Program-made: the position numbers and the translations under genes | Assembly: GCF_000003605.2 (NCBI RefSeq) | Contig: NW_003130130.1 | Span: 1-64,000 of the forward strand | Direction: 5' to 3' | DNA length: 64,000 nt | DNA from: Saccoglossus kowalevskii | Taxonomy: Eukaryota; Hemichordata; Enteropneusta; Harrimaniidae | The notes under the pieces: generated by a model | Told to the model about the DNA's origin: nothing | Seen by the model: the letters and a program-made list of their open reading frames with translations, nothing else | Databases searched by the model: none | Shown here: piece by piece, positions 1 through 64,000 of the stretch | Position numbering within the stretch: position 1 is the first letter of the stretch | Layout: every line of letters starts with the position of its first letter

Positions 1-2710
1 TTGATATGTCATTCTATGCACCCCAGTCTGCTCTGGGTACACTGGTTCACATTCATTGTATACACCCTAGTCTTCTCTGGATACACCCCTGTCTGCTCTG
101 GATACACTGGTTCACTTGTTATTGTATACACCCCAGTCTGCTCTAGATACACTGGTTTACTTGTTATTGTATACACCCCAGTCTTCTCTGGACACACTGG
201 TTCACTTGTTATTGTATACACCCGAGTCAGCTCTGGGTACACTGGCTCACATGTCATTGTATACACCCAAGTCTGCTCTGGATACACTGGTTGATATGTC
301 ATTCTATGCACCCCAGTCTGCTCTGGGTACACTGGTTCACATGTCATTGTATACACCCCCAGTCTGCTCTGGGTACACTGGTTCACTTGTTATTGTATAC
401 ACCCCAGTCTGCATGGATACACTGGTTGGCATGTCATTCTATTCATCCCAGTCTGCTCTGGATACACTGGTTCACTTGTTATTGTATACACCCCAGTCTG
501 CTCTGGATACACTGATTCACTTGTTATTCTATACATCCCAGTCTGCTCTGGGTACACTGGTTGACATGTCATTCTATGCATCCCAGTCTGCTCTGGGTAC
601 ACTGGCTCACATGTCATTGTACACACCCCAGTCTGCTCTGAGGACACTGGTTCACTTGTTATTGTATATACACAAGTCTGCTGTGGATACACTGGTTCAC
701 TTGTTATTGTATACACCCCAGTCTGCTCTGGGTACACTGGTTCACTTGTTATTGTATACACCCCAGTCTGCTCTGGATACACTGGTTCACATGTTATTGT
801 ACACACCCCTGTCTGCTCTGGACACACTGGTTCACTTGTTATTGTATACACCCCTGTCTGCTCTGGACACACTGGTTCACTTGTTATTGTATACACCCCA
901 GTCTGCTCTGGGTACACTGGCTCACAAGTTATTGTATACACCCAAGTCTGCTCTGGATACACTGGTTCACATGTTATTGTATACACCCAAGTCTGCTCTG
1001 GGTACACTGGTTCACTTGTAATTGTATACATCCCAGTCTGCTCTGGATACACTGGCTCACACGTCATTGTATACACCCCAATCTGCTCTGGTTCACTTGT
1101 CATTGTATACACCCCAGTCTGCTCTGGACACACTGGTTCACTTGTTATTGTATACACCACAGTCTGCTCTGGATACACTGGCTCACATGTCATTATATAC
1201 ACCCCAGTCTGCTCTGGGTACACTGGTTCACTTGTTATTGTATACACCCCAGTCTGCACTGGATGCACTGGTTGACATGTCATTCTATGCATCCCAGTCT
1301 GCTCTGGGTACACTGGTTCACATGTCATTGTATACACCCAAGTCTTCTCTGGATACACTGGCTCACACGTCATTGTATACACCCCAGTCTGCTCTGGACA
1401 CACTGGTTCACTTGTTATTGTATACACCCAGTCTGCTCTGGGTACACCGGTTCACTTGTTATTGTATACGCCCCAGTCTGCACTGGATACACTGGTTGAC
1501 ATGTCATTCTATGCATCCCAGTCTGCTCTGGATACACTGGTTCACATGTCATTGTATACACCCCAGTCTGCTCTGGGTACACTGGTTCACATGTTATTGT
1601 ATACACCCCAGTCTGCACTGGATACACTGGTTGACATGTCATTCTATGCATCCCAGTCTGCTCTGGATACACTGGCTCACACGTCATTGTATACACCCCA
1701 GTCTGCTCTGGATACACTGGTTCACATGTTATTGTATACACCCAAGTCTGCTCTGGGTACACTGGTTCACTTGTTATTGTGTACATCCCAGTCTGCTCCG
1801 GATACACTGGCTCACACGTCATTGTATACACCCCAATCTGCTCTGGTTCACTTGTCATTGTATACATCCCAGTCTGCTCTGGACACACTGGTTCACTTGT
1901 TATTGTATACACCCCAGTCTGCTCTGGATACACTGGCTCACATGTCACTGTATACACCCCAGTCTGCTCTGGGTACACTGGTTCACTTGTTATTGTATAC
2001 ACCCCAGTCTGCACTGGATACACTGGTTGACATGTCATTCTATGCATCCCAGTCTGCTCTGGATACACTGGTTCACTTGTTATTGTATATACCCAAGTCT
2101 GCTGTGGATACACTGGTTCACTTGTTATTGTATACACCCCAGTCTGCTCTGGGTACACTGGTTCACTTGTTATTGTATACACCCCAGTCTGCTCTGGATA
2201 CACTGGTTCACATGTTATTGTACACACCCCTGTCTGCTCTGGACACACTGGTTCACTTGTTATTGTATACACCCCTGTCTGCTCTGGACACACTGGTTCA
2301 CTTGTTATTGTATACACCCCAGTCTGCTCTGGGTACACTGGCTCACAAGTCATTGTATACACCCAAGTCTTCTCTGGATACACTGGCTCACATGTTATAG
2401 TGTACACATCAGTCTGCTCTGGATACACTGGTTCACATGTTATTGTATACACCAAAATCTGCTCTGGACACACTGGTTCACATGTCATTGTATACACCCA
2501 AGTCTTCTCTGGATACACTGGCTCACATGTTATAGTGTACACATCAGTCTGCTCTGGATACACTGGTTCACATGTTATTGTATACACCCCTGTCTGCTCT
2601 GGATACACTGGTTGACATAACATTGTATTCACCCAAGTCTGCTCTGGATACACTGGCTCACAAGTCATTGTATACTCCCGCGTTTGGTCTGGATACACTG
2701 GGTCACATGT
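1..2710. repeat. Module C mosaic, first copy
   Basis: About 60 units of the C type. Markers are CTGAGGACACTGG near 640, two 36-bp short units (1066-1101 and 1821-1856), two GTTATAGTGTACACATCAG units starting at 2394 and 2529 (135 bp = 3 units apart), GACATAACATTG near 2613 and CCCGCGTTTGG near 2678. The TGTACACACCCCTG unit occurs near 805 and 2220. A 24-bp deletion near base 80 joins two half units. Bases 1 to about 1260 are paralogous to 54,324-55,680. Boundaries are set by the last C marker and are good to about one unit. Confidence 0.8.
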
Positions 2711-3540
2711 CATTGTGTACACCCCTGTCTGCTCTGGACACACTGGTTCACATGTTATTGTATACATCCAAGTCTGCTCTGGGTACACTGGTTCACATGT
2801 TATTGTATACACCCAAGTCTGCTCTGGGTACACTGGTTCACATGTTATAGTGTGCACCCAAGCCTGCTCTGGATACACTGGCTCACATGTCATTGTATAC
2901 ACCAAAGTCTGCTATGGATACACTGGCTCACATGTCATTGTATACACCCGAGTCTGCTCTGGATACACTGGTCCACATGTCATTGTATACACCCAAGTCT
3001 GCTGTGGATACACTGGCTCACATGTCATTGTATACACCAAAGTCTGCTCTGGATACACTGGCTCACATGTCATTGTATACACCCGAGTCTGCTCTGGACA
3101 CACTGGTTCACATGTTATTGTATACATCCAAGTCTGCTCTGGGTACACTGGTTCACATGTTATTGTATACACCCAAGTCTGCTCTGGGTACACTGGTTCA
3201 CATGTTATAGTGTGCACCCAAGCCTGCTCTGGATACACTGGCTCACATGTCATTGTATACACCAAAGTCTGCTATGGATACACTGGCTCACATGTCATTG
3301 TATACACCCGAGTCTGCTCTGGATACACTGGTCCACATGTCATTGTATACACCCAAGTCTGCTGTGGATACACTGGCTCACATGTCATTGTATACACCAA
3401 AGTCTGCTCTGGATACACTGGCTCACATGTCATTGTATACACCCGAGTCTGCTCTGGATACACTGGTTGAAATGTCATTCTATGCACCCCAGTCTGCTGT
3501 GGATACACTGGCTCACATGTCATTGTATACACCCCAGTCT
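2711..3540. repeat. Module B, first copy, with internal 360-bp duplication
   Basis: The B signature is present twice: GTTATAGTGTGCACC near 2845 and again 360 bp later, each followed by CAAAGTCTGCTATGG, the GGTCCACATG unit and the CTGCTGTGG unit. The module ends with a GGTTGAAATG unit near 3468 and a TCTATGCACCCC unit before the first CTGGTTACAC unit of module A. Confidence 0.85.
2727..3458. repeat. Exact 360-bp (8-unit) tandem duplication
   Basis: Bases 2727-3098 match 3087-3458 without a mismatch at an offset of 360, compared line by line. The left limit is CCCCTG against CCCGAG; the right limit is GGACAC against GGATAC. Zero divergence over 372 bases that include several rare variants shows a very recent unequal exchange or slippage event of eight whole units. 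Confidence 0.93.
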
Positions 3541-8790: not shown

Positions 8791-11700
8791 CCAGTCTGCT
8801 CTGGGTACTCTGGTTCACATGTCATTGTATACACATCAGTCTGCTCTGGATACACTGGTTCACATGTCATTGTATACACCCCAGTCTGCACTGGATACAC
8901 TGGTTCACTTGTTATTGTATACACCCCAGTCTGCTCTTGGTACACTGGTTCACTTGTTATTGTATACACCCCTGTCTGCTCTGGATACACTGGTTCACTT
9001 GTTATTGTATACACCCCAGTCTGCTCTGGACACACTGGTTCACATGTTATTGTACACACCCCTGTCTGCTCTGGACACACTGGTTCACTTGTTATTGTAT
9101 ACACCCCAGTCTGCTCTGGGTACACTGGTTCACTTGTTATTGTATACACCCCAGTCTGCTCTGGACACACTGGTTCACATGTTATTGTACACACCCCTGT
9201 CTGCTCTGGACACACTGGTTCACTTGTTATTGTATACACCCCAGTCTGTTCTGGGTACACTGGTTCACATGTCATTGTATACACCCAAGTCTTCTCTGGA
9301 TACACTGGCTCACACGTCTTTGTATACACCCCAGTCTGCTCTGGACACACTGGTTCACTTGTTATTGTATACACCCCAGTCTGCTCTGGGTACACTGGTT
9401 CACTTGTTATTGTATACACCCCAGTCTGCACTGGATACACTGGTTGACATGTCATTCCATGCATCCCAGTCTGCTCTGGATACACTGGTTCACTTGTTAT
9501 TGTATACACCCCAGTCTGCTCTGGATACACTGGTTCACATGTCATTGTATACACCCCAGTCTGCTCTGGGTACACTGGTTCACTTGTTATTGTATACACC
9601 CAAGCCTGCTCTGGATACACTGGCTCACATCTCATTGTATACACCCGAGTCAGCTCTGGATACACTGGTTGAAATGTCATTCTATGCACCCCAGTCTGCT
9701 CTAGATACACTGGTCCACATGTTATTGTATACACCCCAGTCTGCTCTGGATACACTGGTTCACATGTCACTGTATACACCCCGGTCTGCTCTGGTTACAC
9801 TGGTTCACTTGTTATTGTATACACCCCAGTCTGCACTGGATACACTGGTTCACTTGTTATTGTATACACCCCAGTCTGCTCTTGGTACACTGGTTCACTT
9901 GTTATTGTATACACCCCAGTCTGCTCTGGATACACTGGTTCACTTGTTATTGTATACACCCCAGTCTGCTCTGGATACATTGGTTCACTTGTTATTGTAT
10001 ACACCCCAGTCTGCTCTGGGTACACTGGTTCACTTGTTATTGTATACACCCCAGTCTGCTCTGGACACACTGGTTCACATGTTATTGTACACACCCCTGT
10101 CTGCTCTGGACACACTGGTTCACTTGTTATTGTATACACCCCAGTCTCCTCTGGGTACACTGGTTCACATGTCATTGTATACACCCAAGTCTTCTCTGGA
10201 TACACTGGCTCACACGTCATTGTATACACCCCAGCCTGCTCTGGACACACTGGTTCACTTGTTATTGTATACACCCCAGTCTGTTCTGGGTACACTGGTT
10301 CACATGTCATTGTATACACCCAAGTCTTCTCTGGATACACTGGCTCACACGTCATTGTATACACCCCAGTCTGCTCTGGACACACTGGTTCACTTGTTAT
10401 TGTATACACCCCAGTCTGCTCTGGGTACACTGGTTCACTTGTTATTGTATACACCCCAGTCTGCACTGGATACACTGGTTGACATGTCATTCCATGCATC
10501 CCAGTCTGCTCTGGATACACTGGTTCACTTGTTATTGTATACACCCCAGTCTGCTCTGGATACACTGGTTCACTTGTTATTGTATACACCCAAGCCTGCT
10601 CTGGATACACTGGCTCACATCTCATTGTATACACCCGAGTCAGCTCTGGATACACTGGTTGAAATGTCATTCTATGCACCCCAGTCTGCTCTAGATACAC
10701 TGGTCCACATGTTATTGTATACACCCCAGTCTGCTCTGGATACACTGGTTCACATGTCACTGTATACACCCCAGTCTGCTCTGGTTACACTGGTTCACTT
10801 GTTATTGTATACACCCCAGTCTGCACTGGATACACTGGTTCACTTGTTATTGTATACACCCCAGTCTGCTCTTGGTACACTGGTTCACTTGTTATTGTAT
10901 ACACCCCAGTCTGCTCTGGATACACTGGTTCACTTGTTATTGTATACACCCCAGTCTGCTCTGGATACATTGGTTCACTTGTTATTGTATACACCCCAGT
11001 CTGCTCTGGGTACACTGGTTCACTTGTTATTGTATACACCCCAGTCTGCTCTGGACACACTGGTTCACATGTTATTGTACACACCCCTGTCTGCTCTGGA
11101 CACACTGGTTCACTTGTTATTGTATACACCCCAGTCTCCTCTGGGTACACTGGTTCACATGTCATTGTATACACCCAAGTCTTCTCTGGATACACTGGCT
11201 CACACGTCATTGTATACACCCCAGCCTGCTCTGGACACACTGGTTCACTTGTTATTGTATACACCCCAGTCTGCTCTGGGTACACTGGTTCACTTGTTAT
11301 TGTATACACCCCAGTCTGCACTGGATACACTGGTTGACATGTCATTCCATGCATCCCAGTCTGCTCTGGATACACTGGTTCACTTGTTATTGTATACACC
11401 CCAGTCTGCTCTTGGTACACTGGTTCACTTGTTATTGTATACACCCCAGTCTGCTCTGGATACACTGGTTCACTTGTTATTGTATACACCCCAGTCTGCT
11501 CTGGATACACTGGTTCACTTGTTATTGTATACACCCCAGTCTGCTCTGGGTACACTGGTTCACTTGTTATTGTATACACCCCAGTCTGCTCTGGACACAC
11601 TGGTTCACATGTTATTGTACACACCCCTGTCTGCTCTGGACACACTGGTTCACTTGTTATTGTATACACCCCAGTCTGCTCTGGGTACACTGGTTCACAT

Positions 11701-22380: not shown

Positions 22381-24290
22381 ACACCCCAGTCTGCACTGGA
22401 TACACTGGTTCACTTGTTATTGTATACACCCCAGTCTGCTCTTGGTACACTGGTTCACTTGTTATTGTATACACCCCAGTCTGCTCTGGATACACTGGTT
22501 CACTTGTTATTGTATACACCCCAGTCTGCTCTGGGTACACTGGTTCACTTGTTATTGTATACACCCCAGTCTGCTCTGGACACACTGGTTCACATGTTAT
22601 TGTACACACCCCTGTCTGCTCTGGACACACTGGTTCACTTGTTATTGTATACACCCCAGTCTGCTCTGGGTACACTGGTTCACATGTCATTGTATACACC
22701 CAAGTCTTCTCTGGATACACTGGCTCACACGTCATTGTATACACCCCAGTCTGCTCTGGACACACTGGTTCACATGTTATTGTATACACCCAAGTCTGCT
22801 CTGGGTACACTGGTTCACATGTTATAGTGTGCACCCAAGCCTGCTCTGGATTCACTGGCTCACATGTCATTGTATACACCAAAGTCTGCTATGGATACAC
22901 TGGCTCACATGTCATTGTATACACCCGAGTCTGCTCTGGATACACTGGTCCACATGTCATTGTATACACCCAAGTCTGCTGTGGATACACTGGCTCACAT
23001 GTCATTGTATACACCAAAGTCTGCTCTGGATACACTGGCTCACATGTCATTGTATACACCCGAGTCTGCTCTGGATACACTGGTTGAAATGTCATTCTAT
23101 GCACCCCAGTCTGCTGTGGATACACTGGCTCACATGTCATCGTATACACCCAAGTCTGCTCTGGGTACAGCGGTTCACATGTTATTGTATACACCAAAGT
23201 CGGCTCTGGATACACTGGTTCATATGTTATTGTATACACCCCTGTCTGCTCTGGACACACTGTTTGACATGTCATTCTATGCACCCCAGTCTGCTCTGGG
23301 TACTCTGGTTCACATGTCATTGTATACACATCAGTCTGCTCTGGATACACTGGTTCACATGTCATTGTATACACCCCAGTCTGCTCTGGTTACACTGGTT
23401 CACTTGTTATTGTATACACCCCAGTCTGCACTGGATACACTGGTTCACTTGTTATTGTATACACCCCAGTCTGCTCTTGGTACACTGGTTCACTTGTTAT
23501 TGTATACACCCCTGTCTGCTCTGGACACACTGGTTCACTTGTTATTGTATACACCCCAGTCTGCTCTGGGTACACTGGTTCACATGTCATTGTATACACC
23601 CAAGTCTTCTCTGGATACACTGGCTCACACGTCATTGTATACACCCCAGTCTGCTCTGGACACACTGGTTCACATGTTATTGTATACACCCAAGTCTGCT
23701 CTGGGTACACTGGATCACATGTTATAGTGTGCACCCAAGCCTGCTCTGGATACACTGGCTCACATGTCATTGTATACACCAAAGTCTGCTATGGATACAC
23801 TGGCTCACATGTCATTGTATACACCCGAGTCTGCTCTGGATACACTGGTCCACATGTCATTGTATACACCCAAGTCTGCTGTGGATACACTGGCTCACAT
23901 GTCATTGTATACACCAAAGTCTGCTCTGGATACACTGGCTCACATGTCATTGTATACACCCGAGTCTGCTCTGGATACACTGGTTGAAATGTCATTCTAT
24001 GCACCCCAGTCTGCTGTGGATACACTGGCTCACATGTCATCGTATACACCCAAGTCTGCTCTGGGTACAGCGGTTCACATGTTATTGTATACACCAAAGT
24101 CGGCTCTGGATACACTGGTTCATATGTTATTGTATACACCCCTGTCTGCTCTGGACACACTGTTTGACATGTCATTCTATGCACCCCAGTCTGCTCTGGG
24201 TACTCTGGTTCACATGTCATTGTATACACATCAGTCTGCTCTGGATACACTGGTTCACATGTCATTGTATACACCCCCAGTCTGCTCTGG
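22381..24290. repeat. Tandem pair of 900-bp A/B composites
   Basis: Partial A (CTCTTGGTACAC, TGTACACACCCCTG, AAGTCTTCTCTGG) and complete B form a 20-unit composite. GTTATAGTGTGCACC units lie 900 bp apart near 22,822 and 23,722. Both copies carry CATGTCATCGTATAC, GTACAGCGG and AAGTCGGCTCTGG. Confidence 0.85.
22606..24277. repeat. Near-identical 772-bp copies at 900-bp spacing
   Basis: Bases 22,606-23,377 match 23,506-24,277 with two mismatches: 22,814 (GGTTCAC against GGATCAC) and 22,852 (GGATTCACT against GGATACACT). The match ends at an extra C at 24,278. Part of the same segment (22,853-23,525) is also identical to 59,254-59,926. Confidence 0.92.
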
Positions 24291-25080
24291 TTACACTGGT
24301 TCACTTGTTTATTGTATACACCCCAGTCTGCACTGGATACACTGGTTCACTTGTTATTGTATACACCCCAGTCTGCTCTTGGTACACTGGTTCACTTGTT
24401 ATTGTATACACCCCTGTCTGCTCTGGATACACTGGTTCACTTGTTATTGTATACACCCCAGTCTGCTCTGGATACACTGGTTCACTTGTTATTGTATACA
24501 CCCCAGTCTGCTCTGGGTACACTGGTTCACTTGTTATTGTATACACCCCAGTCTGCTCTGGACACACTGGTAAACATGTTATTGTACACAAGCCTGTCTG
24601 TTCTGGACACATTGGTTCACTCGTTATTGTATACACCCCAGTCTGTTCTGGGTACACTGGTTCACATGTCATTGTATACACCCAAGTCTTCTCTGGATAC
24701 ACTGGCTCACACGTCATTGTATACACCCCAGTCTGCTCTGGACACACTGGTTCACTTGTTATTGTATACACCCCAGTCTGCTCTGGGTACACTGGTTCAC
24801 TTGTTATTGTATACACCCCAGTCTGCACTGGATACACTGGTTGACATGTCATTCCATGCATCCCAGTCTGCTCTGGATACACTGGTTCACTTGTTATTGT
24901 ATACACCCCAGTCTGCTCTGGATACACTGGTTCACATGTCATTGTATACACCCCAGTCTGCTCTGGGTACACTGGTTCACTTGTTATTGTATACACCCCA
25001 GTCTGCTCTGGATACACTGGCTCACTTGTTATTGTAAACACCCCAGTCTGCTCTGGATACACTGGTTCACTTGTTATTGT
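24291..25080. repeat. Module A copy with a local substitution cluster
   Basis: Module A order from CTGGTTACAC near 24,290. A single-base gain in TTGTTTATTG lies near 24,306. A dense group of changes lies at 24,570-24,625: GGTAAACATG, ACACAAGCCTG, CTGTTCTGGACACATTGG and CACTCGTTATTG. The rest of the copy is regular. Confidence 0.78.
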
Positions 25081-25430
25081 ATACACCCCAGTCTGCTCTG
25101 GGTACACCCCAGTCTGCTCTGGATACACTGGCTCACATGTCATTGTATACACCCCAGTCTGCTCTGGGTTCACTTGTTATTGTATACACCCCAGTCTGCA
25201 CTGGATACACTGGTTGACATGTCATTCCATGCATCCCAGACTGCTCTGGATACACTGGTTCACTTGTCATTGTATACACCCCCAGTCTGCTCTGGATACA
25301 CTAGTTGACATGTCATTCCATGCATCCCAGTCTGCTCTAGATACACTGGTTCACATGTTATTGTATACACCCCAGTCTGCTCTGGATACACTGGTTCACA
25401 TGTCATTGTATACACCCCAGTCTGCTCTGG
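25081..25430. repeat. Junction block J, copy 1
   Basis: Block J holds a 24-bp deletion that joins CTGGGTACAC directly to CCCAGTCTGC (near 25,101), then an 8-bp deletion giving CTCTGGGTTCACTTG (near 25,162), and the CCCAGACTGC variant near 25,236. The same trio occurs near 43,021, 44,960 and 47,395. This copy lacks the TGCATCCAAGTCTGC unit found in the other three and has an extra C near 25,280. Confidence 0.87.
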
Positions 25431-26330
25431 TTACACTGGTTCTCTTGTTATTGTATACACCCCAGTCTGCACTGGATACACTGGTTCACTTGTTATTGTA
25501 TACACCCCAGTCTGCTCTTGGTACACTGGTTCACTTGTTATTGTATACACCCCAGTCTGCTCTGGATACACTGGTTCACTTGTTATTGTATACACCCCAG
25601 TCTGCTCTGGATACACTGGTTCACTTGTTATTGTATACACCCCAGTCTGCTCTGGGTACACTGGTTCACTTGTTATTGTATACACCCCAGTCTGCTCTGG
25701 ACACACTGGTTCACATGTTATTGTACACACCCCTGTCTGCTCTGGACACACTGGTTCACTTGTTATTGTATACACCCCAGTCTGCTCTGGGTACACTGGT
25801 TCACATGTCATTGTATACACCCAAGTCTTCTCTGGATACACTGGCTCACACGTCATTGTATACACCCCAGCTTGCTCTGGACACACTGGTTCACTTGTTA
25901 TTGTATACACCCCAGTCTGCTCTGGGTACACTGGTTCACTTGTTATTGTATACACCCCAGTCTGCACTGGATACACTGGTTGACATGTCATTCCATGCAT
26001 CCCAGTCTGCTCTGGATACACTGGTTCACTTGTTATTGTATACACCCCAGTCTGCTCTGGATACACTGGTTCACATGTCATTGTATACACCCCAGTCTGC
26101 TCTGGGTACACTGGTTCACTTGTTATTGTATACACCCAAGCCTGCTCTGGATACACTGGCTCACATCTCATTGTATACACCCGAGTCAGCTCTGGATACA
26201 CTGGTTGAAATGTCATTCTATGCACCCCAGTCTGCTCTAGATACACTGGTCCACATGTTATTGTATACACCCCAGTCTACTCTGGATACACTGGTTCACA
26301 TGTCATTGTATACACCCCAGTCTGCTCTGG
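25431..26330. repeat. Module A archetype, 20 units, 900 bp
   Basis: This is the cleanest full A module. In order the units carry CTGGTTACAC, CTGCACTGG, CTCTTGGTACAC, two ordinary, GGGTAC, GGACAC with CACATG, TGTACACACCCCTG, GGGTAC, AAGTCTTCTCTGG with CACACG, CAGCTTGCTCTGG, GGGTAC, CTGCACTGG with TTGACATG, CCATGCATCCC, ordinary with CACATG, GGGTAC, AAGCCTGC with CACATCTC, CGAGTCAGC with TTGAAATG, CTCTAGATAC with GTCCACATG, and CAGTCTACTCTGG. The next CTGGTTACAC falls exactly 900 bp later. Confidence 0.88.
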
Positions 26331-26960
26331 TTACACTGGTTCACTTGTTATTGTATACACCCCAGTCTGCACTGGATACACTGGTTCACTTGTTATTGTA
26401 TACACCCCAGTCTGCTCTTGGTACACTGGTTCACTTGTTATTGTATACACCCCAGTCTGCTCTGGATACACTGGTTTACTTGTTATTGTATACACCCCAG
26501 TCTGCTCTGGGTACACTGGTTCACTTGTTATTGTATACACCCCAGTCTGCTCTGGACACACTGGTTCACATGTTATTGTACACACCCCTGTCTGCTCTGT
26601 ACACACTGGTTCACTTGTTATTGTATACACCCCAGTCTGCTCTGGGTACACTGGTTCACATGTCATTGTATACACCCAAGTCTTCTCTGGATACACTGGC
26701 TCACACGTCATTGTATACACCCCAGTCTGCTCTGGACACACTGGTTCACTTGTTATTGTATACACCCCAGTCTGCACTGGATACACTGGTTGACATGTCA
26801 TTCTATGCATCCCAGTCTGCTCTGGATACACTGGTTCACTTGTTATTGTATACACCCCAGTCTGCTCTGGATACACTGGTTCACATGTTATTGTACACAC
26901 CCCTGTCTGCTCTGGACACACTGGTTCACATGTTATTGTATACACCCCTGTCTGCTCTGG
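26331..26960. repeat. Truncated module A
   Basis: It begins as a second copy of the 25,431 module, with a GGTTTACTTG variant near 26,474 and CTCTGTACACACTGG near 26,596. After the CTGCACTGG and TCTATGCATCCC units it switches to TGTACACACCCCTG and the C-end units. Confidence 0.8.
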
Positions 26961-36760: not shown

Positions 36761-37720
36761 TATACACCCCAGTCTGCTCTGGATACACTGGTTCACTTGT
36801 TATTGTATACACCCCAGTCTGCTCTGGATACACTGGTTCACTTGTTATTGTATACATCCCAGTCTGCTCTGGGTACACTGGTTGACATGTCATTCTATGC
36901 ATCCCAGTCTGCTCTGGGTACACTGGCTCACATGTCATTGTACACACCCCAGTCTGCTCTGAGGACACTGGTTCACTTGTTATTGTATATACCCAAGTCT
37001 GCTGTGGATACACTGGTTCACTTGTTATTGTATACACCCCAGTCTGCTCTGGGTACACTGGTTCACTTGTTATTGTATACACCCAAGTCTGCTCTGGATA
37101 CACTGGTTCACATGTTATTGTACACACCCCTGTCTGCTCTGGACACACTGGTTCACTTGTTATTGTATACACCCCTGTCTGCTCTGGACACACTGGTTCA
37201 CTTGTTATTGTATACACCCCAGTCTGCTCTGGGTACACTGGCTCACAAGTCATTGTATACACCCAAGTCTGCTCTGGGTACACTGGTTCACATGTCATTG
37301 TATACACCCAAGTCTTCTCTGAATACACTGGCTCACATGTTATAGTGTACACATCAGTCTGCTCTGGATACACTGGTTCACATGTTATTGTATACACCAA
37401 AATCTGCTCTGGACAAACTGGTTCACATGTCATTGTATACACCCAAGTCTTCTCTGGATACACTGGCTCACATGTTATAGTGTACACATCAGTCTGCTCT
37501 GGATACACTGGTTCACATGTTATTGTACACACCCCTGTCTGCTCTGGACACACTGGTTCACATGTTATTGTATACACCCCTGTCTGCTCTGGATACACTG
37601 GTTGACATAACATTGTATTCACCCAAGTCTGCTCTGGATACACTGGCTCACAAGTCATTGTATACTCCCGCATTTGGTCTGGATACACTGGCTCACATAG
37701 TCATTGTATACACCCCTGTC
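36761..37720. repeat. Module C with complete C end
   Basis: CTGAGGACACTGG near 36,958, AAGTCTGCTGTGG near 37,004, GGCTCACAAGTC near 37,240, GTTATAGTGTACACATCAG near 37,339 and 37,474, TGTACACACCCCTG near 37,520, GACATAACATTG near 37,604 and CCCGCATTTGG near 37,668. CTCACATAGTCATTG near 37,691 carries two extra bases. Confidence 0.82.
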
Positions 37721-38390
37721 TGCTCTGGACACACTGGTTCACATGTTATTGTATACACCCAAATCTGCTCTGGGTACACTGGTTCACATGTTATTGTATA
37801 CACCCAAGTCTGCTCTGGGTACACTGGTTCACATGTTATAATGTGCACCCAAGCCTTGTCTGGATACACTGGCTCACATGTCATTGTATACACAAAAGTC
37901 TGCTATGGATACACTGGCTCACATGTCATTGTATACACCCGAATCTGCTCTGGATACACTGGTCCACATGTCATTGTATACACCCAAGTCTGCTCTGGAT
38001 ACACTGGCTCACATGTCATTGTATACACCAAAGTCTGCTCTGGATACACTGGCTCACATGTCATTGTATACACCCGAGTCTGCTCTGGATACACTGGTTG
38101 AAATGTCATTCTATGCACCCCAGTCTGCTGTGGATACACTGGCTCACATGTCATTGTATACACCCAAGTCTGCTCTTGGTACAGCGGTTCACATGTTATT
38201 GTATACACCAAAGTCTGCTCTGGATACACTGGTTCATATGTTATTGTATACACCCCTGTCTGCTCTGGACACACTGTTTGACATGTCATTCTATGCACCC
38301 CAGTATGCTCTGGGTACTCTGGTTCACATGTCATTGTATACACATCAGTCTGCTCTGGATACACTGGTTCACATGTCATTGTATACACCC
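37721..38390. repeat. Full module B
   Basis: GTTATAATGTGCACC near 37,834 with AAGCCTTGTCTGG, CACAAAAGTCTGC, CTGCTATGG, CCCGAATCTGC, GGTCCACATG, CAAAGTCTGC, GGTTGAAATG near 38,096, CTGCTGTGG, CTCTTGGTACAGCGG near 38,173, GGTTCATATG, CTGTTTGACATG, CAGTATGCTC near 38,301 and ACATCAGTCTGC. AAGCCTTGTCTGG and CACAAAAG are shared with the B start near 36,123. Confidence 0.82.
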
Positions 38391-39830
38391 CAGTCTGTTC
38401 TGGTTACACTGGTTCACTTGTTATTGTATACACCCCAGTCTGCACTGGATACACTGGTTCACTTGTTATTGTATACACCCCAGTCTGCTCTGGATACACT
38501 GGTTCACTTGTTATTGTATACACCCCAGTCTGCTCTGGATACACTGGTTCACTTGTTATTGTATACACCCCAGTCTGCTCTGGGTACACTGGTTCACTTG
38601 TTATTGTATACACCCCAGTCTGCTCTGGATACACTGGTTCACTTGTTATTGTATACACCCCAGTCTGCTCTGGGTACACTGGTTCACTTGTTATTGTATA
38701 CACCCCAGTCTGCTCTGGGTACACTGGTTCACTTGTTATTGTATACACCCCCAGTCTGCTCTGGACACACTGGTTCACATGTTATTGTACACACCCCTGT
38801 CTGCTCTGGACACACTGGTTCACTTGTTATTGTATACACCCCAGTCTGCTCTGGGTACACTGGTTCACATGTCATTGTATACACCCAAGTCTTCTCTGGA
38901 TACACTGGCTCACACGTCATTGTATACACCCCAGTCTGCTCTGGACACACTGGTTCACTTGTTATTGTATACACCCCAGTCTGCTCTGGGTACACTGGTT
39001 CACTTGTTATTGTATACACCCCAGTCTGCACTGGATACACTGGTTGACATGTCATTCCATGCATCCCAGTCTGCTCTGGATACACTGGTTCACTTGTTAT
39101 TGTATACACCCCAGTCTGCTCTGGATACACTGGTTCACATGTCATTGTATACACCCCAGTCTGCTCTGGGTACACTGGTTCACTTGTTATTGTATACACC
39201 CAAGCCTGCTCTGGATACACTGGCTCACATCTCATTGTATACACCCAAGTCAGCTCTGGATACACTGGTTGAAATGTCATTCTATGCACCCCAGTCTGCT
39301 CTAGATACACTGGTCCACATGTTATTGTATACACCCCAGTCTGCTCTGGATACACTGGTTCACATGTCATTGTATACACCCCAGTCTGCTCTGGTTACAC
39401 TGGTTCACTTGTTATTGTATACACCCCAGTCTGCACTGGATACACTGGTTCACTTGTTATTGTATACACCCCAGTCTGCTCTTGGTACACTGGTTCACTT
39501 GTTATTGTATACACCCCAGTCTGCTCTGGATACACTGGTTCACTTGTTATTGTATACACCCCAGTCTGCTCTGGGTACACTGATTCACTTGTTATTGTAT
39601 ACACCCCAGTCTGCTCTGGACGCACTGGTTCACTTGTTATTGTACACACCCCTGTCTGCTCTGGACACACTGGTTCACTTGTTATTGTATACACCCCAGT
39701 CTGCTCTGGGTACACTGGTTCACATGTCATTGTATACACCCAAGTCTTCTCTGGATACACTGGCTCACACGTCATTGTATACACCCCAGTCTGCTCTGGA
39801 CACACTGGTTCACTTGTCATTGTATACACC
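38391..39830. repeat. Module A, two starts 991 bp apart
   Basis: CTGGTTACAC lies at 38,400 and 39,391; the interval is 22 units plus one extra C near 38,750. Variants include CTGATTCACTTG near 39,580 and GGACGCACTGG near 39,618; the latter is shared with 12,405. Confidence 0.8.
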
Positions 39831-44940: not shown

Positions 44941-45330
44941 TGTATACACCCCAGTCTGCTCTGGGTACACCCCAGTCTGCTCTGGATACACTGGCTCACA
45001 TGTCATTGTATACACCCCAGTCTGCTCTGGGTTCACTTGTTATTGTATACACCCCAGTCTGCACTGGATACACTGGTTGACATGTCATTCTATGCATCCA
45101 AGTCTGCTCTGGATACACTGGTTGACATGTCATTCCATGCATCCCAGACTGCTCTGGATACACTGGTTCACTTGTCATTGTATACACCCCAGTCTGCTCT
45201 GGATACACTGGTTGACATGTCATTCCATGCATCCCAGTCTGCTCTAGATACACTGGTCCACATGTTATTGTATACACCCCAGTCTGCTCTGGATACACTG
45301 GTTCACATGTCATTGTATACACCCCAGTTT
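44941..45330. repeat. Junction block J, copy 3
   Basis: 24-bp deletion near 44,963, 8-bp deletion near 45,026, TGCATCCAAGTCTGC near 45,095 and CCCAGACTGC near 45,142. The block sits directly after CTCTTGGTACAC, as in copy 4. Confidence 0.87.
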
Positions 45331-47370: not shown

Positions 47371-47770
47371 TTATTGTATACACCCCAGTCTGCTCTGGGT
47401 ACACCCCAGTCTGCTCTGGATACACTGGCTCACATGTCATTGTATACACCCCAGTCTGCTCTGGGTTCACTTGTTATTGTATACACCCCAGTCTGCACTG
47501 GATACACTGGTTAACATGTCATTCTATGCATCCAAGTCTGCTCTGGATACACTGGTTGACATGTCATTCCATGCATCCCAGACTGCTCTGGATACACTGG
47601 TTCACTTGTCATTGTATACACCCCAGTCTGCTCTGGATACACTGGTTGACATGTCATTCCATGCATCTCAGTCTGCTCTAGATACACTGGTCCACATGTT
47701 ATTGTATACACCCCAGTCTGCTCTGGATACACTGGTTCACATGTCATTGTATACACCCCAGTCTGCTCTG
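47371..47770. repeat. Junction block J, copy 4
   Basis: 24-bp deletion near 47,397, 8-bp deletion near 47,460, a private GGTTAACATGTC near 47,510, TGCATCCAAGTCTGC near 47,527 and CCCAGACTGC near 47,577. Confidence 0.87.
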
Positions 47771-49200
47771 GTTACACTGGTTCTCTTGTTATTGTATACA
47801 CCCCAGTCTGCACTGGATACACTGGTTCACTTGTTATTGTATACACCCCAGTCTGCTCTTGGTACACTGGTTCACTTGTTATTGTATACACCCCAGTCTG
47901 CTCTGGATACACTGGTTCACTTGTTATTGTATACACCCCAGTCTGCTCTGGATACACTGGTTCACTTGTTATTGTATACACCCCAGTCTGCTCTGGGTAC
48001 ACTGGTTCACTTGTTATTGTATACACCCCAGTCTGCTCTGGACACACTGGTTCACATGTTATTGTACACACCCCTGTCTGCTCTGGACACACTGGTTCAC
48101 TTGTTATTGTATACACCCCAGTCTGCTCTGGGTACACTGGTTCACATGTCATTGTATACACCCAAGTCTTCTCTGGATACACTGGCTCACACGTCATTGT
48201 ATACACCCCAGCCTGCTCTGGACACACTGGTTCACTTGTTATTGTATACACCCCAGTCTGCTCTGGATACACTGGTTCACTTGTTATTGTATACACCCCA
48301 GTCTGCACTGGATACACTGGTTCACTTGTTATTGTATACACCCCAGTCTGCTCTGGGTACACTGGTTCACTTGTTATTGTATACACCCCAGTCTGCACTG
48401 GATACACTGGTTGACATGTCATTCCATGCATCCCAGTCTGCTCTGGATACACTGGTTCACTTGTTATTGTATACACCCCAGTCTGCTCTGGATACACTGG
48501 TTCACATGTCATTGTATACACCCCAGTCTGCTCTGGGTACACTGGTTCACTTGTTATTGTATACACCCAAGCCTGCTCTGGATACACTGGCTCACATCTC
48601 ATTGTATACACCCGAGTCAGCTCTGGATACACTGGTTGAAATGTCATTCTATGCACCCCAGTCTGCTCTAGATACACTGGTCCACATGTTATTGTATACA
48701 CCCCAGTCTACTCTGGATACACTGGTTCACATGTCATTGTATACACCCCAGTCTGCTCTGGTTACACTGGTTCACTTGTTATTGTATACACCCCAGTCTG
48801 CACTGGATACACTGGTTCACTTGTTATTGCATACACCCCAGTCTGCTCTTGGTACACTGGTTCACTTGTTATTGTATACACCCCAGTCTGCTCTGGATAC
48901 ACTGGTTTACTTGTTATTGTATACACCCCAGTCTGCTCTGGGTACACTGGTTCACTTGTTATTGTATACACCCCAGTCTGCTCTGGACACACTGGTTCAC
49001 ATGTTATTGTACACACCCCTGTCTGCTCTGGACACACTGGTTCACTTGTTATTGTATACACCCCAGTCTGCTCTGGGTACACTGGTTCACATGTCATTGT
49101 ATACACCCAAGTCTTCTCTGGATACACTGGCTCACACGTCATTGTATACACCCCAGTCTGCTCTGGACACACTGGTTCACTTGTTATTGTATACACCCCA
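47771..49200. repeat. Module A, two starts 990 bp apart
   Basis: CTGGTTACAC falls at 47,769 and 48,759. The first copy has 22 units, including an extra CTGCACTGG unit near 48,303. The second is truncated after CTGCACTGG and TTTATGCATCCC near 49,233. GGTTTACTTG near 48,904 matches the copy near 26,474. Confidence 0.82.
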
Positions 49201-50570
49201 GTCTGCACTGGATACACTGGTTGACATGTCATTTTATGCATCCCAGTCTGCTCTGGATACACTGGTTCACTTGTTATTGTATACACCCCAGTCTGCTCTG
49301 GATACACTGGTTCACATGTTATTGTATACACCCAAGTCTGCTCTGGGTACACTGGTTCACTTGTTATTGTATACATCCCAGTCTGCTCTGGATACACTGG
49401 CTCACACGTCATTGTATACACCCCAGTCTGCTCTGGATACACTGGTTCACATGTTATTGTATACACCCAAGTCTGCTCTGGGTACACTGGTTCACTTGTT
49501 ATTGTATACATCCCAGTCTGCTCCGGATACACTGGCTCACACGTCATTGTATACACCCCAATCTGCTCTGGTTCACTTGTCATTGTATACACCCCAGTCT
49601 GCTCTGGACACACTGGTTCACTTGTTATTGTATACACCCCAGTCTGCTCTGGATACACTGGCTCACATGTCACTGTATACACCCCAGTCTGCTCTGGGTA
49701 CACCGATTCACTTGTTATTGTATACACCCCAGTCTGCACTGGATACACTGGTTGACATGTCATTCTATGCATCCCAGTCTGCTCTGGGTAGACTGGCTCA
49801 CATGTCATTGTACACACCCCAGTCTGCTCTGAGGACACTGGTTCACTTGTTATTGTATATACCCAAGTCTGCTGTGGATACACTGGTTCACTTGTTATTG
49901 TATCCACCCCAGTCTGCTCTGGGTACACTGGTTCACTTGTTATTGTATACACCCCAGTCTGCTCTGGATACACTGGTTCACATGTTATTGTACACACCCC
50001 TGTCTGCTCTGGACACACTGGTTCACTTGTTATTGTATACACCTCTGTCTGCTCTGGACACACTGGTTCACTTGTTATTGTATACACCCCAGTCTGCTCT
50101 GGGTACACTGGCTCACAAGTCATTGTATACACCCAAGTCTGCTCTGGGTACACTGGTTCACATGTCATTGTATACACCCAAGTCTTCTCTGGATACACTG
50201 GCTCACATGTTATAGTGTACACATCAGTCTGCTCTGGATACACTGGTTCACATGTTATTGTATACACCAAAGTCTGCTCTGGACACACTGGTTCACATGT
50301 CATTGTATACACCCAAGTCTTCTCTGGATACACTGGCTCACATGTTATAGTGTACACATCAGTCTGCTCTGGATACACTGGTTCACATGTTATTGTACAC
50401 ACCCCTGTCTGCTCTGGACACACTGGTTCACATGTTATTGTATACACCCCTGTCTGCTCTGGATACACTGGTTGACATAACATTGTATTCACCCAAGTCT
50501 GCTCTGGATACACTGGCTCACAAGTCATTGTATACTCCCGCGTTTGGTCTGGATACACTGGCTCACATGT
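49201..50570. repeat. Module C with complete C end
   Basis: 36-bp unit 49,546-49,581, GTACACCGATTC near 49,697, GGGTAGACTGG near 49,788, CTGAGGACACTGG near 49,828, AAGTCTGCTGTGG, GGCTCACAAGTC, GTTATAGTGTACACATCAG near 50,209 and 50,344, GACATAACATTG near 50,474 and CCCGCGTTTGG near 50,538. Confidence 0.82.
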
Positions 50571-54323: not shown

Positions 54324-55680
54324 TTGATATGTCATTCTATGCACCCCAGTCTGCTCTGGGTACACTGGTTCACATTCATTGTATACACCCTAGTCTTCTC
54401 TGGATACACCCCTGTCTGCTCTGGACACACTGGTTGACATGTCATTCTATGGACCCCAGTCTGCTCTGGATACACTGGTTCACTTGTTATTGTATACACC
54501 CCAGTCTGCTCTAGATACACTGGTTTACTTGTTATTGTATACACCCCAGTCTTCTCTGGACACACTGGTTCACTTGTTATTGTATACACCCGAGTCAGCT
54601 CTGGGTACACTGGCTCACATGTCATTGTATACACCCAAGTCTGCTCTGGATACACTGGTTGATATGTCATTCTATGCACCCCAGTCTGCTCTGGGTACAC
54701 TGGTTCACATGTCATTGTATACACCCCAGTCTGCTCTGGGTACACTGGTTCACTTGTTATTGTATACACCCCAGTCTGCATGGATACACTGGTTGGCATG
54801 TCATTCTATTCATCCCAGTCTGCTCTGGATACACTGGTTCACTTGTTATTGTATACACCCCAGTCTGCTCTGGATACACTGATTCACTTGTTATTCTATA
54901 CATCCCAGTCTGCTCTGGGTACACTGGTTGACATGTCATTCTATGCATCCCAGTCTGCTCTGGGTACACTGGCTCACATGTCATTGTACACACCCCAGTC
55001 TGCTCTGAGGACACTGGTTCACTTGTTATTGTATATACCCAAGTCTGCTGTGGATACACTGGTTCACTTGTTATTGTATACACCCCAGTCTGCTCTGGGT
55101 ACACTGGTTCACTTGTTATTGTATACACCCCAGACTGCTCTGGATACACTGGTTCACATGTTATTGTACACACCCCTGTCTGCTCTGGACACACTGGTTC
55201 ACTTGTTATTGTATACACCCCTGTCTGCTCTGGACACACTGGTTCACTTGTTATTGTATACACCCCAGTCTGCTCTGGGTACACTGGCTCACAAGTCATT
55301 GTATACACCCAAGTCTGCTCTGGGTACACTGGTTCACATGTCATTGTATACACCCAAGTCTTCTCTGGATACACTGGCTCACATGTTATAGTGTACACAT
55401 CAGTCTGCTCTGGATACACTGGTTTACTTGTTATTGTATACACCCCAGTCTGCTCTTGATACACTGGCTCACACGTCATTGTATACACCCCAATCTGCTC
55501 TGGTTCACTTGTCATTGTATACACCCCAGTCTGCTCTGGACACACTGGTTCACTTGTTATTTGTATACACCACAGTCTGCTCTGGATACACTGGCTCACA
55601 TGTCACTGTATACACCCCAGTCTGCTCTGGGTACACTGGTTCACTTGTTATTGTATACACCCCAGTCTGCACTGGATACA
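54324..55680. repeat. Paralogue of the window start
   Basis: It shares with bases 1-1260 the rare units GGTTGATATG (twice), CACATTCATTG, CCCTAGTCTTCTCTGG followed by a 24-bp deletion, CTCTAGATACACTGGTTTAC, CAGTCTGCATGG, TCTATTCATCCC and ACCACAGTCTGC. The offset is 54,323 at first, 54,368 after one extra unit here, and 54,413 by ACCACAGTCTGC. The middle part differs, because this copy has the AAGTCTTCTCTGG and GTTATAGTGTACACATCAG units near 55,340-55,400. Confidence 0.87.
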
Positions 55681-56762
55681 CTGGTTGATATGTCATTCTA
55701 TGCATCCCAGTCTGCTCTGGATACACTGGTTCACTTGTTATTGTATACACCTCAGTCTGCTCTGGATACACTGGTTCACTTGTTATTGTATACATCCCAG
55801 TCTGCTCTGGGTACACTGGTTGACATGTCATTCTATGCATCCCAGTCTGCTCTGGGTACACTGGTTCACATGTCATTGTATACACATCAGTCTGCTCTGG
55901 ATACACTGGTTTACTTGTTATTGTATACACCCCAGTCTGCTCTGGATACACTGGCTCACACGTCATTGTATACACCCCAATCTGCTCTGGTTCACTTGTC
56001 ATTGTATACACCCCAGTCTGCTCTGGACACACTGGTTCACTTGTTATTGTATACACCGCAGTCTGCTCTGGATACACTGGCTCACATGTCACTGTATACA
56101 CCCCAGTCTGCTCTGGGTACACTGGTTCACTTGTTATTGTATACACCCCAGTCTGCACTGGATACACTGGTTGACATGTCATTCTATGCATCCCAGTCTG
56201 CTCTGGATACACTGGTTCACTTGTTATTGTATACACCCCAGTCTGCTCTGGATACACTGGTTCACTTGTTATTGTATACATCCCAGTCTGCTCTGGGTAC
56301 ACTGGTTGACATGTCATTCTATGCATCCCAGTCTGCTCTGGGTACACTGGCTCACATGTCATTGTACACACCCCAGTCTGCTCTGAGGACAATGGTTCAC
56401 TTGTTATTGTATATACCCAATTCTGCTGTGGATACACTGGTTCACTTGTTATTGTATACACCCCAGTCTGCTCTGGGTACACTGGTTCACTTGTTATTGT
56501 ATACACCCCAGTCTGCTCTGGATACACTGGTTCACATGTTATTGTACACACCCCTGTCTGCTCTGGACACACTGGTTCACTTGTTATTGTATACACCCCT
56601 GTCTGCTCTGGACACACTGGTTCACTTGTTATTGTATACACCCCAGTCTGCTCTGGGTACACTGGCTCACAAGTCATTGTATACACCCAAGTCTGCTCTG
56701 GGTACACTGGTTCACATGTCATTGTATACACCCAAGTCTTCTCTGGATACACTGGCTCACAT
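55681..56762. repeat. Module C, enlarged copy
   Basis: From the GTGTACACATCAG unit near 55,388 to the next near 56,766 is 1,378 bp: 29 units of 45, two short units of 36 (55,478-55,513 and 55,965-56,000) and one extra T near 55,561. It is an expanded relative of the 981-bp repeat downstream. CCCAATTCTGCTGTGG near 56,407 and GAGGACAATGG near 56,388 are private. Confidence 0.8.
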
Positions 56763-57743
56763 GTTATAGTGCACACATCAGTCTGCTCTGGATACACTGG
56801 TTCACATATTATTGTATACACCAAAGTCTGCTCTGGACACACTGGTTCACATGTCATTGTATACACCCAAGTCTTCTCTGGATACACTGGCTCACATGTT
56901 ATAGTGTACACATCAGTCTGCTCTGGATACACTGGTTCACATGTTATTGTATACACCCAAGTCTGCTCTGGGTACACTGGTTCACTTGTTATTGTATACA
57001 TCCCAGTCTGCTCTGGATACACTGGCTCACACGTCATTGTATACACCCCAATCTGCTCTGGTTCACTTGTCATTGTATACACCCCAGTCTGCTCTGGACA
57101 CACTGGTTCACTTGTTATTGTATACACCCCAGTCTGCACTGGATACACTGGTTGACATGTCATTCTATGCATCCCAGTCTGCTCTGGATACACTGGTTCA
57201 CTTGTTATTGTATACACCCCAGTCTGCTCTGGATACACTGGTTCAGTTGTTATTGTATACATCCCAGTCTGCTCTGGGTACACTGGTTGACATGTCATTC
57301 TATGCATCCCAGTCTGCTCTGGGTACACTGGCTCACATGTCATTGTACACACCCCAGTCTGCTCTGAGGACACTGGTTCACTTGTTATTGTATATACCCA
57401 AGTCTGCTGTGGATACACTGGTTCACTTGTTATTGTATACACCCCAGTCTGCTCTGGGTACACTGGTTCACTTGTTATTGTATACACCCCAGTCTGCTCT
57501 GGATACACTGGTTCACATGTTATTGTACACACCCCTGTCTGCTCTGGACACACTGGTTCACTTGTTATTGTATACACCCCTGTCTGCTCTGGACACACTG
57601 GTTCACTTGTTATTGTATACACCCCAGTCTGCTCTGGGTACACTGGCTCACAAGTCATTGTATACACCCAAGTCTGCTCTGGGTACACTGGTTCACATGT
57701 TATTGTATACACCCAAGTCTTCTCTGGATACACTGGCTCACAT
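56763..57743. repeat. 981-bp higher-order repeat, copy 1
   Basis: Starts at GTTATAGTGCACACATCAG. It has 22 units: 21 of 45 bp and one of 36 bp (57,036-57,071). At least five substitutions separate it from copy 2 (near 56,772, 56,897, 57,246, 57,493 and 57,702), so identity is about 99.5%. Confidence 0.92.
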
Positions 57744-58724
57744 GTTATAGTGTACACATCAGTCTGCTCTGGATACACTGGTTCACATATTATTGTATAC
57801 ACCAAAGTCTGCTCTGGACACACTGGTTCACATGTCATTGTATACACCCAAGTCTTCTCTGGATACACTGGCTCACTTGTTATAGTGTACACATCAGTCT
57901 GCTCTGGATACACTGGTTCACATGTTATTGTATACACCCAAGTCTGCTCTGGGTACACTGGTTCACTTGTTATTGTATACATCCCAGTCTGCTCTGGATA
58001 CACTGGCTCACACGTCATTGTATACACCCCAATCTGCTCTGGTTCACTTGTCATTGTATACACCCCAGTCTGCTCTGGACACACTGGTTCACTTGTTATT
58101 GTATACACCCCAGTCTGCACTGGATACACTGGTTGACATGTCATTCTATGCATCCCAGTCTGCTCTGGATACACTGGTTCACTTGTTATTGTATACACCC
58201 CAGTCTGCTCTGGATACACTGGTTCACTTGTTATTGTATACATCCCAGTCTGCTCTGGGTACACTGGTTGACATGTCATTCTATGCATCCCAGTCTGCTC
58301 TGGGTACACTGGCTCACATGTCATTGTACACACCCCAGTCTGCTCTGAGGACACTGGTTCACTTGTTATTGTATATACCCAAGTCTGCTGTGGATACACT
58401 GGTTCACTTGTTATTGTATACACCCCAGTCTGCTCTGGGTACACTGGTTCACTTGTTATTGTATACACCCCAGACTGCTCTGGATACACTGGTTCACATG
58501 TTATTGTACACACCCCTGTCTGCTCTGGACACACTGGTTCACTTGTTATTGTATACACCCCTGTCTGCTCTGGACACACTGGTTCACTTGTTATTGTATA
58601 CACCCCAGTCTGCTCTGGGTACACTGGCTCACAAGTCATTGTATACACCCAAGTCTGCTCTGGGTACACTGGTTCACATGTCATTGTATACACCCAAGTC
58701 TTCTCTGGATACACTGGCTCACAT
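57744..58724. repeat. 981-bp higher-order repeat, copy 2
   Basis: Starts at GTTATAGTGTACACATCAG exactly 981 bp after copy 1, with its short unit at 58,017-58,052. Private points include GGCTCACTTGTTATAG near 57,870 and CCCAGACTGC near 58,470; the latter is also in the copy near 55,133. Confidence 0.92.
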
Positions 58725-59100
58725 GTTATAGTGTACACATCAGTCTGCTCTGGATACACTGGTTCACATGTTATTGTATACACCAAAGTCTGCTCTGGAC
58801 ACACTGGTTCACATGTCATTGTATACACCCAAGTCTTCTCTGGATACACTGGCTCACATGTTATAGTGTACACATCAGTCTGCTCTGGATACACTGGTTC
58901 ACATGTTATTGTACACACCCCTGTCTGCTCTGGACACACTGGTTCACATGTTATTGTATACACCCCAGTCTGCTCTGGATACACTGGTTGACATAACATT
59001 GTATTCACCCAAGTCTGCTCTCGATACACTGGCTCACAAGTCATTGTATACTCCCGCGTTTGGTCTGGATACACTGGGTCACATGTCATTGTATACACCC
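58725..59100. repeat. Partial third 981-bp repeat and C end
   Basis: The first 180 bp repeat the start of the 981-bp copies. Then TGTACACACCCCTG near 58,909, GACATAACATTG near 58,990, CTCTCGATAC near 59,018 and CCCGCGTTTGG near 59,043 form the C end. CTCTCGATAC is shared with 27,001. Confidence 0.85.
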
Positions 59101-60340
59101 CTGTCTGCTCTGGACACACTGGTTCAACATAGTTATTGTATACACCCAAGTCTGCTCTGGGTACACTGGTTCACATGTTATTGTATACACCCAAGTCTGC
59201 TCTGGGTACACTGGTTCACATGTTATAGTGTGCACCCAAGCCTGCTCTAGATACACTGGCTCACATGTCATTGTATACACCAAAGTCTGCTATGGATACA
59301 CTGGCTCACATGTCATTGTATACACCCGAGTCTGCTCTGGATACACTGGTCCACATGTCATTGTATACACCCAAGTCTGCTGTGGATACACTGGCTCACA
59401 TGTCATTGTATACACCAAAGTCTGCTCTGGATACACTGGCTCACATGTCATTGTATACACCCGAGTCTGCTCTGGATACACTGGTTGAAATGTCATTCTA
59501 TGCACCCCAGTCTGCTGTGGATACACTGGCTCACATGTCATCGTATACACCCAAGTCTGCTCTGGGTACAGCGGTTCACATGTTATTGTATACACCAAAG
59601 TCGGCTCTGGATACACTGGTTCATATGTTATTGTATACACCCCTGTCTGCTCTGGACACACTGTTTGACATGTCATTCTATGCACCCCAGTCTGCTCTGG
59701 GTACTCTGGTTCACATGTCATTGTATACACATCAGTCTGCTCTGGATACACTGGTTCACATGTCATTGTATACACCCCAGTCTGCTCTGGTTACACTGGT
59801 TCACTTGTTATTGTATACACCCCAGTCTGCACTGGATACACTGGTTCACTTGTTATTGTATACACCCCAGTCTGCTCTTGGTACACTGGTTCACTTGTTA
59901 TTGTATACACCCCTGTCTGCTCTGGATACACTGGTTCACTTGTTATTGTATACACCCCAGTCTGCTCTGGATACACTGGTTCACTTGTTATTGTATACAC
60001 CCCAGTCTGCTCTGGTTACACTGGTTCACTTGTTATTGTATACACCCCAGTCTGCACTGGATACACTGGTTCACTTGTTATTGTATACACCCCAGTCTGC
60101 TCTTGGTACACTGGTTCACTTGTTATTGTATACACCCCTGTCTGCTCTGGACACACTGGTTCACTTGTTATTGTATACACCCCAGTCTGCTCTGGGTACA
60201 CTGGTTCACATGTCATTGTATACACCCAAGTCTTCTCTGGATACACTGGCTCACACGTCATTGTATACACCCCTGTCTGCTCTGGACACACTGGTTCACA
60301 TGTTATTGTATACACCCAAGTCTGCTCTGGGTACACTGGA
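59101..60340. repeat. Module B then module A with a 5-unit duplication
   Basis: A disturbed junction near 59,124 (GGTTCAACATAGTTATTG) leads to GTTATAGTGTGCACC near 59,222 and a complete B with CATGTCATCGTATAC, GTACAGCGG and AAGTCGGCTCTGG. Module A follows at 59,787. CTGGTTACAC, CTGCACTGG and CTCTTGGTACAC then repeat 225 bp later at 60,012. Bases 59,254-59,926 are identical to 22,853-23,525. Confidence 0.87.
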
Positions 60341-63480: not shown

Positions 63481-64000
63481 GGCTCACACGTCATTGTATA
63501 CACCCGAGTCTGCTCTGGATACACTGGTCCACATGTCATTGTATACACCCAAGTCTGCTCTGGATACACTGGCTCACATGTCATTGTATACACCAAAGTC
63601 TGCTCTGGATACACTGGCTCACATGTCATTGTATACACCCGAGTCTGCTCTGGATACACTGGTTGAAATGTCATTCTATGCACCCCAGTCTGCTGTGGAT
63701 ACACTGGCTCACATGTCATTGTATACACCCAAGTCTGCTCTGGGTACAGCGGTTCACATGTTATTGTATACACCAAAGTCTGCTCTGGATACACTGGTTC
63801 ATATGTTATTGTATACACCCCTGTCTGCTCTGGACACACTGGTTCACATGTTATTGTACACACCCCTGTCTGCTCTGGACACACTGGTTCACTTGTTATT
63901 GTATACACCCCAGTCTGCTCTGGGTACACTGGTTCACATGTCATTGTATACACCCAAGTCTTCTCTGGATACACTGGCTCACACGTCATTGTATACACTC
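63481..64000. repeat. Module B part and start of an A part, cut by the window end
   Basis: From AAGTCTTCTCTGG with CACACG it enters module B at CCCGAGTCTGC with GGTCCACATG near 63,530, as at 34,241. It then runs through GGTTGAAATG near 63,662, CTGCTGTGG, GTACAGCGG near 63,748, GGTTCATATG, TGTACACACCCCTG near 63,860 and AAGTCTTCTCTGG. The array is still running at base 64,000. Confidence 0.8.

Follow-up and report, generated by a model that had tools for sequence, protein, structure and literature searches.

A 45-bp satellite array organized as a mosaic of higher-order repeats

We analyzed a 64,000-nucleotide stretch of DNA, referred to here as the window (1..64000, plus strand), and found that it is a single unbroken head-to-tail array of a 45-bp satellite unit that runs past both ends. 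The array is a mosaic of higher-order repeats (HORs); it is real, it is mostly as a preceding sequence-only reading had described it, and it is ordinary in kind. The window is probably a non-coding satellite in which an older run of three unit modules, in the order B, C, and A, has grown and has been reshuffled by duplications and deletions of blocks that mostly kept the 45-bp register. The array is compact, and its layers of unit, module, block, and recombined block can be read directly from the letters.

The extent of the array (1..64000, plus strand) was established from a TRF row covering 81–63998, from a decomposition into units, and from an examination of the contig. The consensus of the 45-bp unit is ATACACCCCAGTCTGCTCTGGATACACTGGTTCACATGTTATTGT, with an A+T content of 55.6%. 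Wrap-around alignment gave 1,431 units (the last unit is cut at the window end, and the first 15 bases are excluded), of which 1,340 were exactly 45 bp long and 355 were distinct. The mean identity of the units to the consensus was 92% in the window, and no gradient was observed when the identity was determined by tenths of the window. The window and its reverse complement had no 30-mer in common, which indicates that all of the units have the same orientation. The source contig is 74,030 bp long in an assembly of 572,110,611 bases and 4,830 contigs, and the window is its bases 1–64,000. The remaining 10,030 bp contained 226 units with 91.5% identity to the consensus; 180 of these belong to types found in the window, and the whole 74,030-bp contig is therefore array. 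The last 6 units at the contig end (outside the window; piece 1–130) fitted the consensus at only 77% and carried several one-base insertions, which perhaps reflects poor sequence at the contig end. The observed/expected ratio of CpG was 0.06 in the window, a value that says little about the host because the consensus itself is without CpG.

The window belongs to tandem satellite or minisatellite DNA, since a single non-coding unit follows itself head to tail over its whole length. No RNA families or tRNAs were found in the window, nor were CENP-B-like, telomeric, or CTCF-like motifs; the lack of a match to a CENP-B-like box is not decisive for a functional centromere satellite. One 180-base piece folded as single-stranded DNA was weaker than its shuffles (z +1.7), with 196 of the 200 shuffles folding at least as well.

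The order of the unit types along the window was not random. Exact runs of at least 4 units numbered 429 versus 0–1 in 20 shuffles; when the minimum was raised to 6 units, there were 155, which covered 49% of the units. When the next unit type was predicted from the previous two across the window halves, 60% and 63% of the predictions were correct, compared with a mean of 9.5% and a maximum of 11.5% in 200 shuffles. The proposal that unit variants recur in a fixed order is thus borne out by the exact runs, and unit clusters scattered at random, which the sequence-only reading had named as the opposing case, are contradicted by the predictions. Among the lags up to 1,200 bp, those richest in repeated 100-mers were 981 bp (802), 900 bp (637), and 990 bp (538), which are the three block sizes that had been named beforehand. 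Merging of the units by union-find was dropped, with 482 to 926 of the 1,431 units falling in one class. The fixed unit order and the copies of long runs, which are far more alike than neighboring units, place the window among the HOR arrays. It is not a regular alpha-satellite-like HOR array with one period in tandem because several short lags (981, 900, and 990 bp) and 178 non-canonical junctions were observed.

To describe this order, we used templates of three modules. They were suggested by an alignment of the places where the most frequent 10-unit windows occur, were sketched by eye, and were then refined via a jump-penalized Viterbi parse. Modules A and C comprise 20 units each and module B 27 positions, including one 36-bp unit, giving 67 positions and approximately 3 kb. 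The parse placed 1,402 of the 1,431 units (653 in A, 437 in B, and 312 in C) and left 29 over; it required 255 breaks versus 1,292–1,297 in 3 shuffles, and 82% of the neighbors stood in template order. The mean divergence between units at the same module position was 1.9–2.3%, whereas arbitrary units differed by 12.9%. Because the templates were drawn from these same data, two extra checks were made. Profiles from one half of the window applied to the other half gave 131 breaks in 715 and 130 in 714 (641–648 and 607–617 in the shuffles, respectively), a check that re-estimated the profiles only, with the template layout still taken from the whole window. In the part of the contig that lies beyond the window (10,030 bp), which was not used for the templates, 43 breaks in 225 were observed versus 193–205 in 20 shuffles.

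Uninterrupted full-length segments were rare in the window, with one for A, none for B, and two for C, in agreement with the truncated copies that had been proposed. The sole uninterrupted module A in the parse (20 units, 900 bp) lies at 25455..26354 on the plus strand, as do all of the features located below, and is directly followed by A1–3. A complete copy of module C (20 units) was parsed at 37527..38427. A 990-bp form of A, parsed at 9819..10808, consists of A1–10, A8–13, and A15–20 (22 units) and is followed by another A start; 9,819–10,268 and 10,809–11,258 are an exact 10-unit match. In regards to kinship among the modules, A10–A14 resembled B7–B12, the five unit pairs adding up to a distance of 3 (P 0.009, the strongest result among three comparisons); this likeness is perhaps a trace of common origin (for example, in the A copy at 25455–26354). 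No kinship beyond chance was observed between A and C (P 0.12) or between B and C (P 0.42), and no pair of modules exceeded its null in an ungapped 8-unit comparison.

We examined how the modules follow each other. In the window, 47 segments reached one of the two final positions of a module and had a following segment; 39 of these 47 continued at position 1 or 2 of a module. The 39 joins were A→A (22), C→A (10), and B→C (7), with no other kinds, and the corresponding means under shuffled segment order were 4.1, 2.7, and 0.4. The other 8 joins were C→A5, C→B5 (twice), C→A14, C→unassigned, A→A10, and B→B4 (twice), the two B→B4 joins being those of the 981-bp tandem described below. Outside the window, five module ends were found: three A→A, one B→C, and one C19→B5. 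The longest canonical run in the Viterbi parse (58103..60039; 43 units) comprises B10–27, C1–20, and A1–5, so that B→C→A is present in one piece, and a second such run (36852..38562; 38 units) comprises B13–27, C1–20, and A1–3. When all module changes between segments of at least 4 units were counted, no directional excess was observed (cyclic 32 versus 30, P 0.43). The sequence-only reading had given the usual order as C, then B, then A; this order stands at the intact boundaries if its C and B are the B and C of this report, but it is less supported as a rule over all changes (32 versus 30). That reading named no diagnostic variants, and we infer the match between its letters and ours.

The boundaries of the modules were chosen after the strings had been seen, and a template-free graph of repeated 4-grams was therefore needed. 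In the graph of 4-grams seen at least 4 times, a 22-unit path ran from the B tail into the C head, the C tail led to the first unit of A, and A formed a 19-unit cycle; the components were B10–27 with C1–15, A1–20 with C13–20, and B1–9. At a threshold of 3, nearly everything fell in one component. The order in the array is thus directed, from B through C to A, and A can repeat. Because the B tail runs into the C head without templates, the cut into three modules, the B/C boundary included, is partly a naming choice. The graph did not confirm three as a natural number of modules, and the three discrete modules that had been proposed are among the less supported parts of the earlier reading.

Unit-level local alignment was used to locate the duplicated blocks, as the matches of a base-level blastn self-comparison ran together along the array. 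The alignment gave 303 self-matches, which overlap and are not mutually independent, of which 113 spanned at least 20 units and 38 at least 30 units. Blocks of at least 12 units were 98.0–99.4% identical (10th–90th percentile), and 91% of the units lay inside blocks of at least 15 units versus none in one shuffled control. The layered organization and the block-scale duplication that had been proposed are both well supported by these matches and by the low divergence within module positions. The highest-scoring self-match (23369..26174; 62 units) was 98.7% identical to 41,297–44,099. The 981-bp block occurs twice in tandem at 56951..58912, as seen in the parse and at a lag of 981; each copy consists of B4–7 and B10–27 (22 units, one of which is 36 bp), and 56,096–57,931 matched 57,077–58,912 at 99.3%. 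The 900-bp block at 22784..23683, located from the parse and an 11-unit exact match at a lag of 900, consists of C7–20, A1–2, and A7–10 and is followed by a second C7–20. Block matches were also enriched at a lag of approximately 36.4 kb (z 4.8 versus at most 4.5 among 60 null replicates), which weakly suggests a further, third layer.

Of the 178 non-canonical junctions, 153 lay between two 45-bp units (86%, with a background of 89%), which indicates that the 45-bp register is usually kept. Moreover, 37 of the 114 junction types recurred, at 101 of the 178 sites, which indicates that the rearranged blocks themselves were copied. The junctions between modules showed no special unit-level homology (P 0.12), whereas the junctions taken together do show it. 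An out-of-register run of 22-, 44-, and 37-bp units lies at 25081..25183 and is repeated at 43,007–43,109, 44,944–45,046, and 47,378–47,480, that is, in at least four places. The 36-bp units, 17 of 19 of which are identical, are without nine bases between two CTGG copies, and this loss fits slippage at a short direct repeat.

Unequal exchange kept in register explains the register, the block duplication, and the truncation. The array would have arisen stepwise. The 45-bp unit would have diversified until arbitrary units stood approximately 13% apart; B→C→A, a longer stretch of such diverged units, would then have become what was copied, with A also able to repeat itself; many block duplications and deletions, mostly in the 45-bp register, would have cut and interleaved the modules; and some of the rearranged blocks would have been copied again. 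The process was probably unequal exchange after misalignment of sister chromatids or homologues, and exchanges of many kilobases, or some conversion-like copying over a distance, may have acted besides the small local events. Against this explanation, the best matches are scattered, the modules show no direction over all changes, and the between-module junctions are without special unit-level homology (P 0.12).

The scatter was determined from the best matches of 20-unit windows. Their median distance was 439 units, compared with 423 at random, and 12.2% of them lay within 50 units versus 4.6% expected; under the tie rule of the simulation, the corresponding values are 420 units and 12.7%. An alternative is that distant copying, by conversion or template switching over tens of kilobases, dominates and that tandem unequal exchange is minor. 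The near-random distribution of the distances and the 99.5% identity of the far-apart segments 25,081–26,894 and 47,378–49,325 speak for this alternative, but the local excess within 50 units and the presence of local tandem copies (981 bp) speak against it. A neutral simulation, exploratory with 20 settings and one run each, also bears on the question. Purely distant copying placed 0–3% of the best matches of 20-unit windows within 50 units in 10 of 10 settings, which again argues against a dominant role, and we consider this alternative unlikely. Simulated tandem blocks averaging 20–40 units placed 30–48% within 50 units, which is too many compared with 12.2%, and small tandem exchange alone therefore does not fit. 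Tandem blocks averaging 80–200 units placed 4–14% within 50 units but produced too few non-canonical junctions (5–10% of the steps versus 12.8% observed). Judged by these simulations, a combined process, with exchanges both large and small or with copying both local and distant, seems likelier than any one of them. A more specific form of the distant-copying alternative, in which homogenization proceeded chiefly by block copying over distances of 10–40 kb (conversion or template switching) and not by tandem unequal exchange, while a directed master order B→C→A of approximately 3 kb stayed legible, is unlikely; if it were true, near-identical blocks would stand almost as far apart as random places in the array.

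It could also be argued that mis-assembly of an array that is in fact more regular accounts in part for the shuffled appearance, given that the contig is array to both ends and that its last 6 units fit the consensus as poorly as would be expected at a badly supported contig end. The recurring junction types, however, carry unit variants of their own, every 800-mer of the window is unique, and the positions of repeated 600-mers amount to just 1.4%, which makes this explanation improbable. Because of the same rarity of long repeated words, each copy could be given a unique position by accurate long reads.

A length of 45 bp corresponds to 15 codons, and the array might be imagined to encode a repetitive protein whose evolution is reflected in the module order. 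Open reading frames of up to 1,379 residues are present, as the consensus is without a stop in the plus frames, and the occurrences of substitutions differ among the codon phases (1,838, 1,013, and 1,823). On the other hand, each phase has the same number of distinct substitution types (37), and stop-making types are as free as others, in a test of low power with 111 of the 135 possible types present. Stops numbered 72–110 per plus frame and 838–1,152 per minus frame, and units that shift the frame have been inherited, namely the 44-bp B11 and B12 (7 copies each) and the 22-, 44-, and 37-bp run (4 copies). With stops in every frame and inherited frame-shifting units, the window is not a coding tandem repeat with one conserved open frame, and a protein-coding origin of the module order is extremely improbable. 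The non-coding satellite reshuffled by block duplication and deletion remains our preferred reading.

To investigate the relatives of the array, the following were searched: phages (2-kb query), plasmids (900-base query), viral contigs (exact 28-mer), and prokaryote genomes (exact 22-mer). No relative was found in any of these, the exact patterns being such that diverged copies would be missed. A 90-base probe gave 64 matches in the host genome, all on the contig of the window, with 2 of the 6 first-look candidates scored; further copies may therefore lie elsewhere. Four pieces of the unit of 15 to 19 letters were not found in the open-licence PMC literature. The 45 bp in the relevant text of PMC4877019 is another 45 bp and was set aside.

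The nearest description found is that of the 61-bp VNTR of human Xp22.33, for which the text of PMC2588610 bearing on it gives an 18-kb array whose irregular HORs, 1.6 and 2.5 kb long, are arranged in a complex way. Compared by description only, the two share a short unit, an array of tens of kilobases, and irregular HORs, and they differ in unit length, host, and the 18-kb size. In alpha satellite, as described in part of PMC9859433, a 171-bp unit forms HORs repeated in tandem hundreds to thousands of times, and unequal crossover and gene conversion are named as the mutational processes of the HORs. The diverged units in fixed order inside a longer repeat are alike in that system and the present array, but the unit is 171 bp there and 45 bp here, with no single regular HOR period. 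In the TRASH analysis of Arabidopsis CEN178, an HOR is defined in the portion of PMC10199239 concerned as two blocks with matching units, located anywhere. This block-pair definition describes the present array well, although CEN178 is a centromeric 178-bp repeat. The subtelomeric minisatellites of a frog, with a 52-bp unit, are similar as short-unit arrays and different in unit length, again compared by description only; their expansion is ascribed to recombination by the authors in the section of PMC10794172 that treats them. The frog satellite PboSat12-91-v-Pep likewise has a 45-bp unit according to an excerpt of PMC12191414, with an A+T content of 64.4% versus 55.6% here, and the likeness is one of length, as the letters were not compared. 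There is no sign of a new system in the array, which could be used to test models of satellite copying and homogenization.

An origin of the 45-bp unit from 21 + 24 bp was tested and gave a P value of 0.11. Isolated 21-bp half units were observed at 60–80, 33230–33250, and 54383–54403, and the copies at 60 and 54,383 are identical. They end where ATACAC recurs within the 45-bp unit, and a deletion between two ATACAC copies would yield them.
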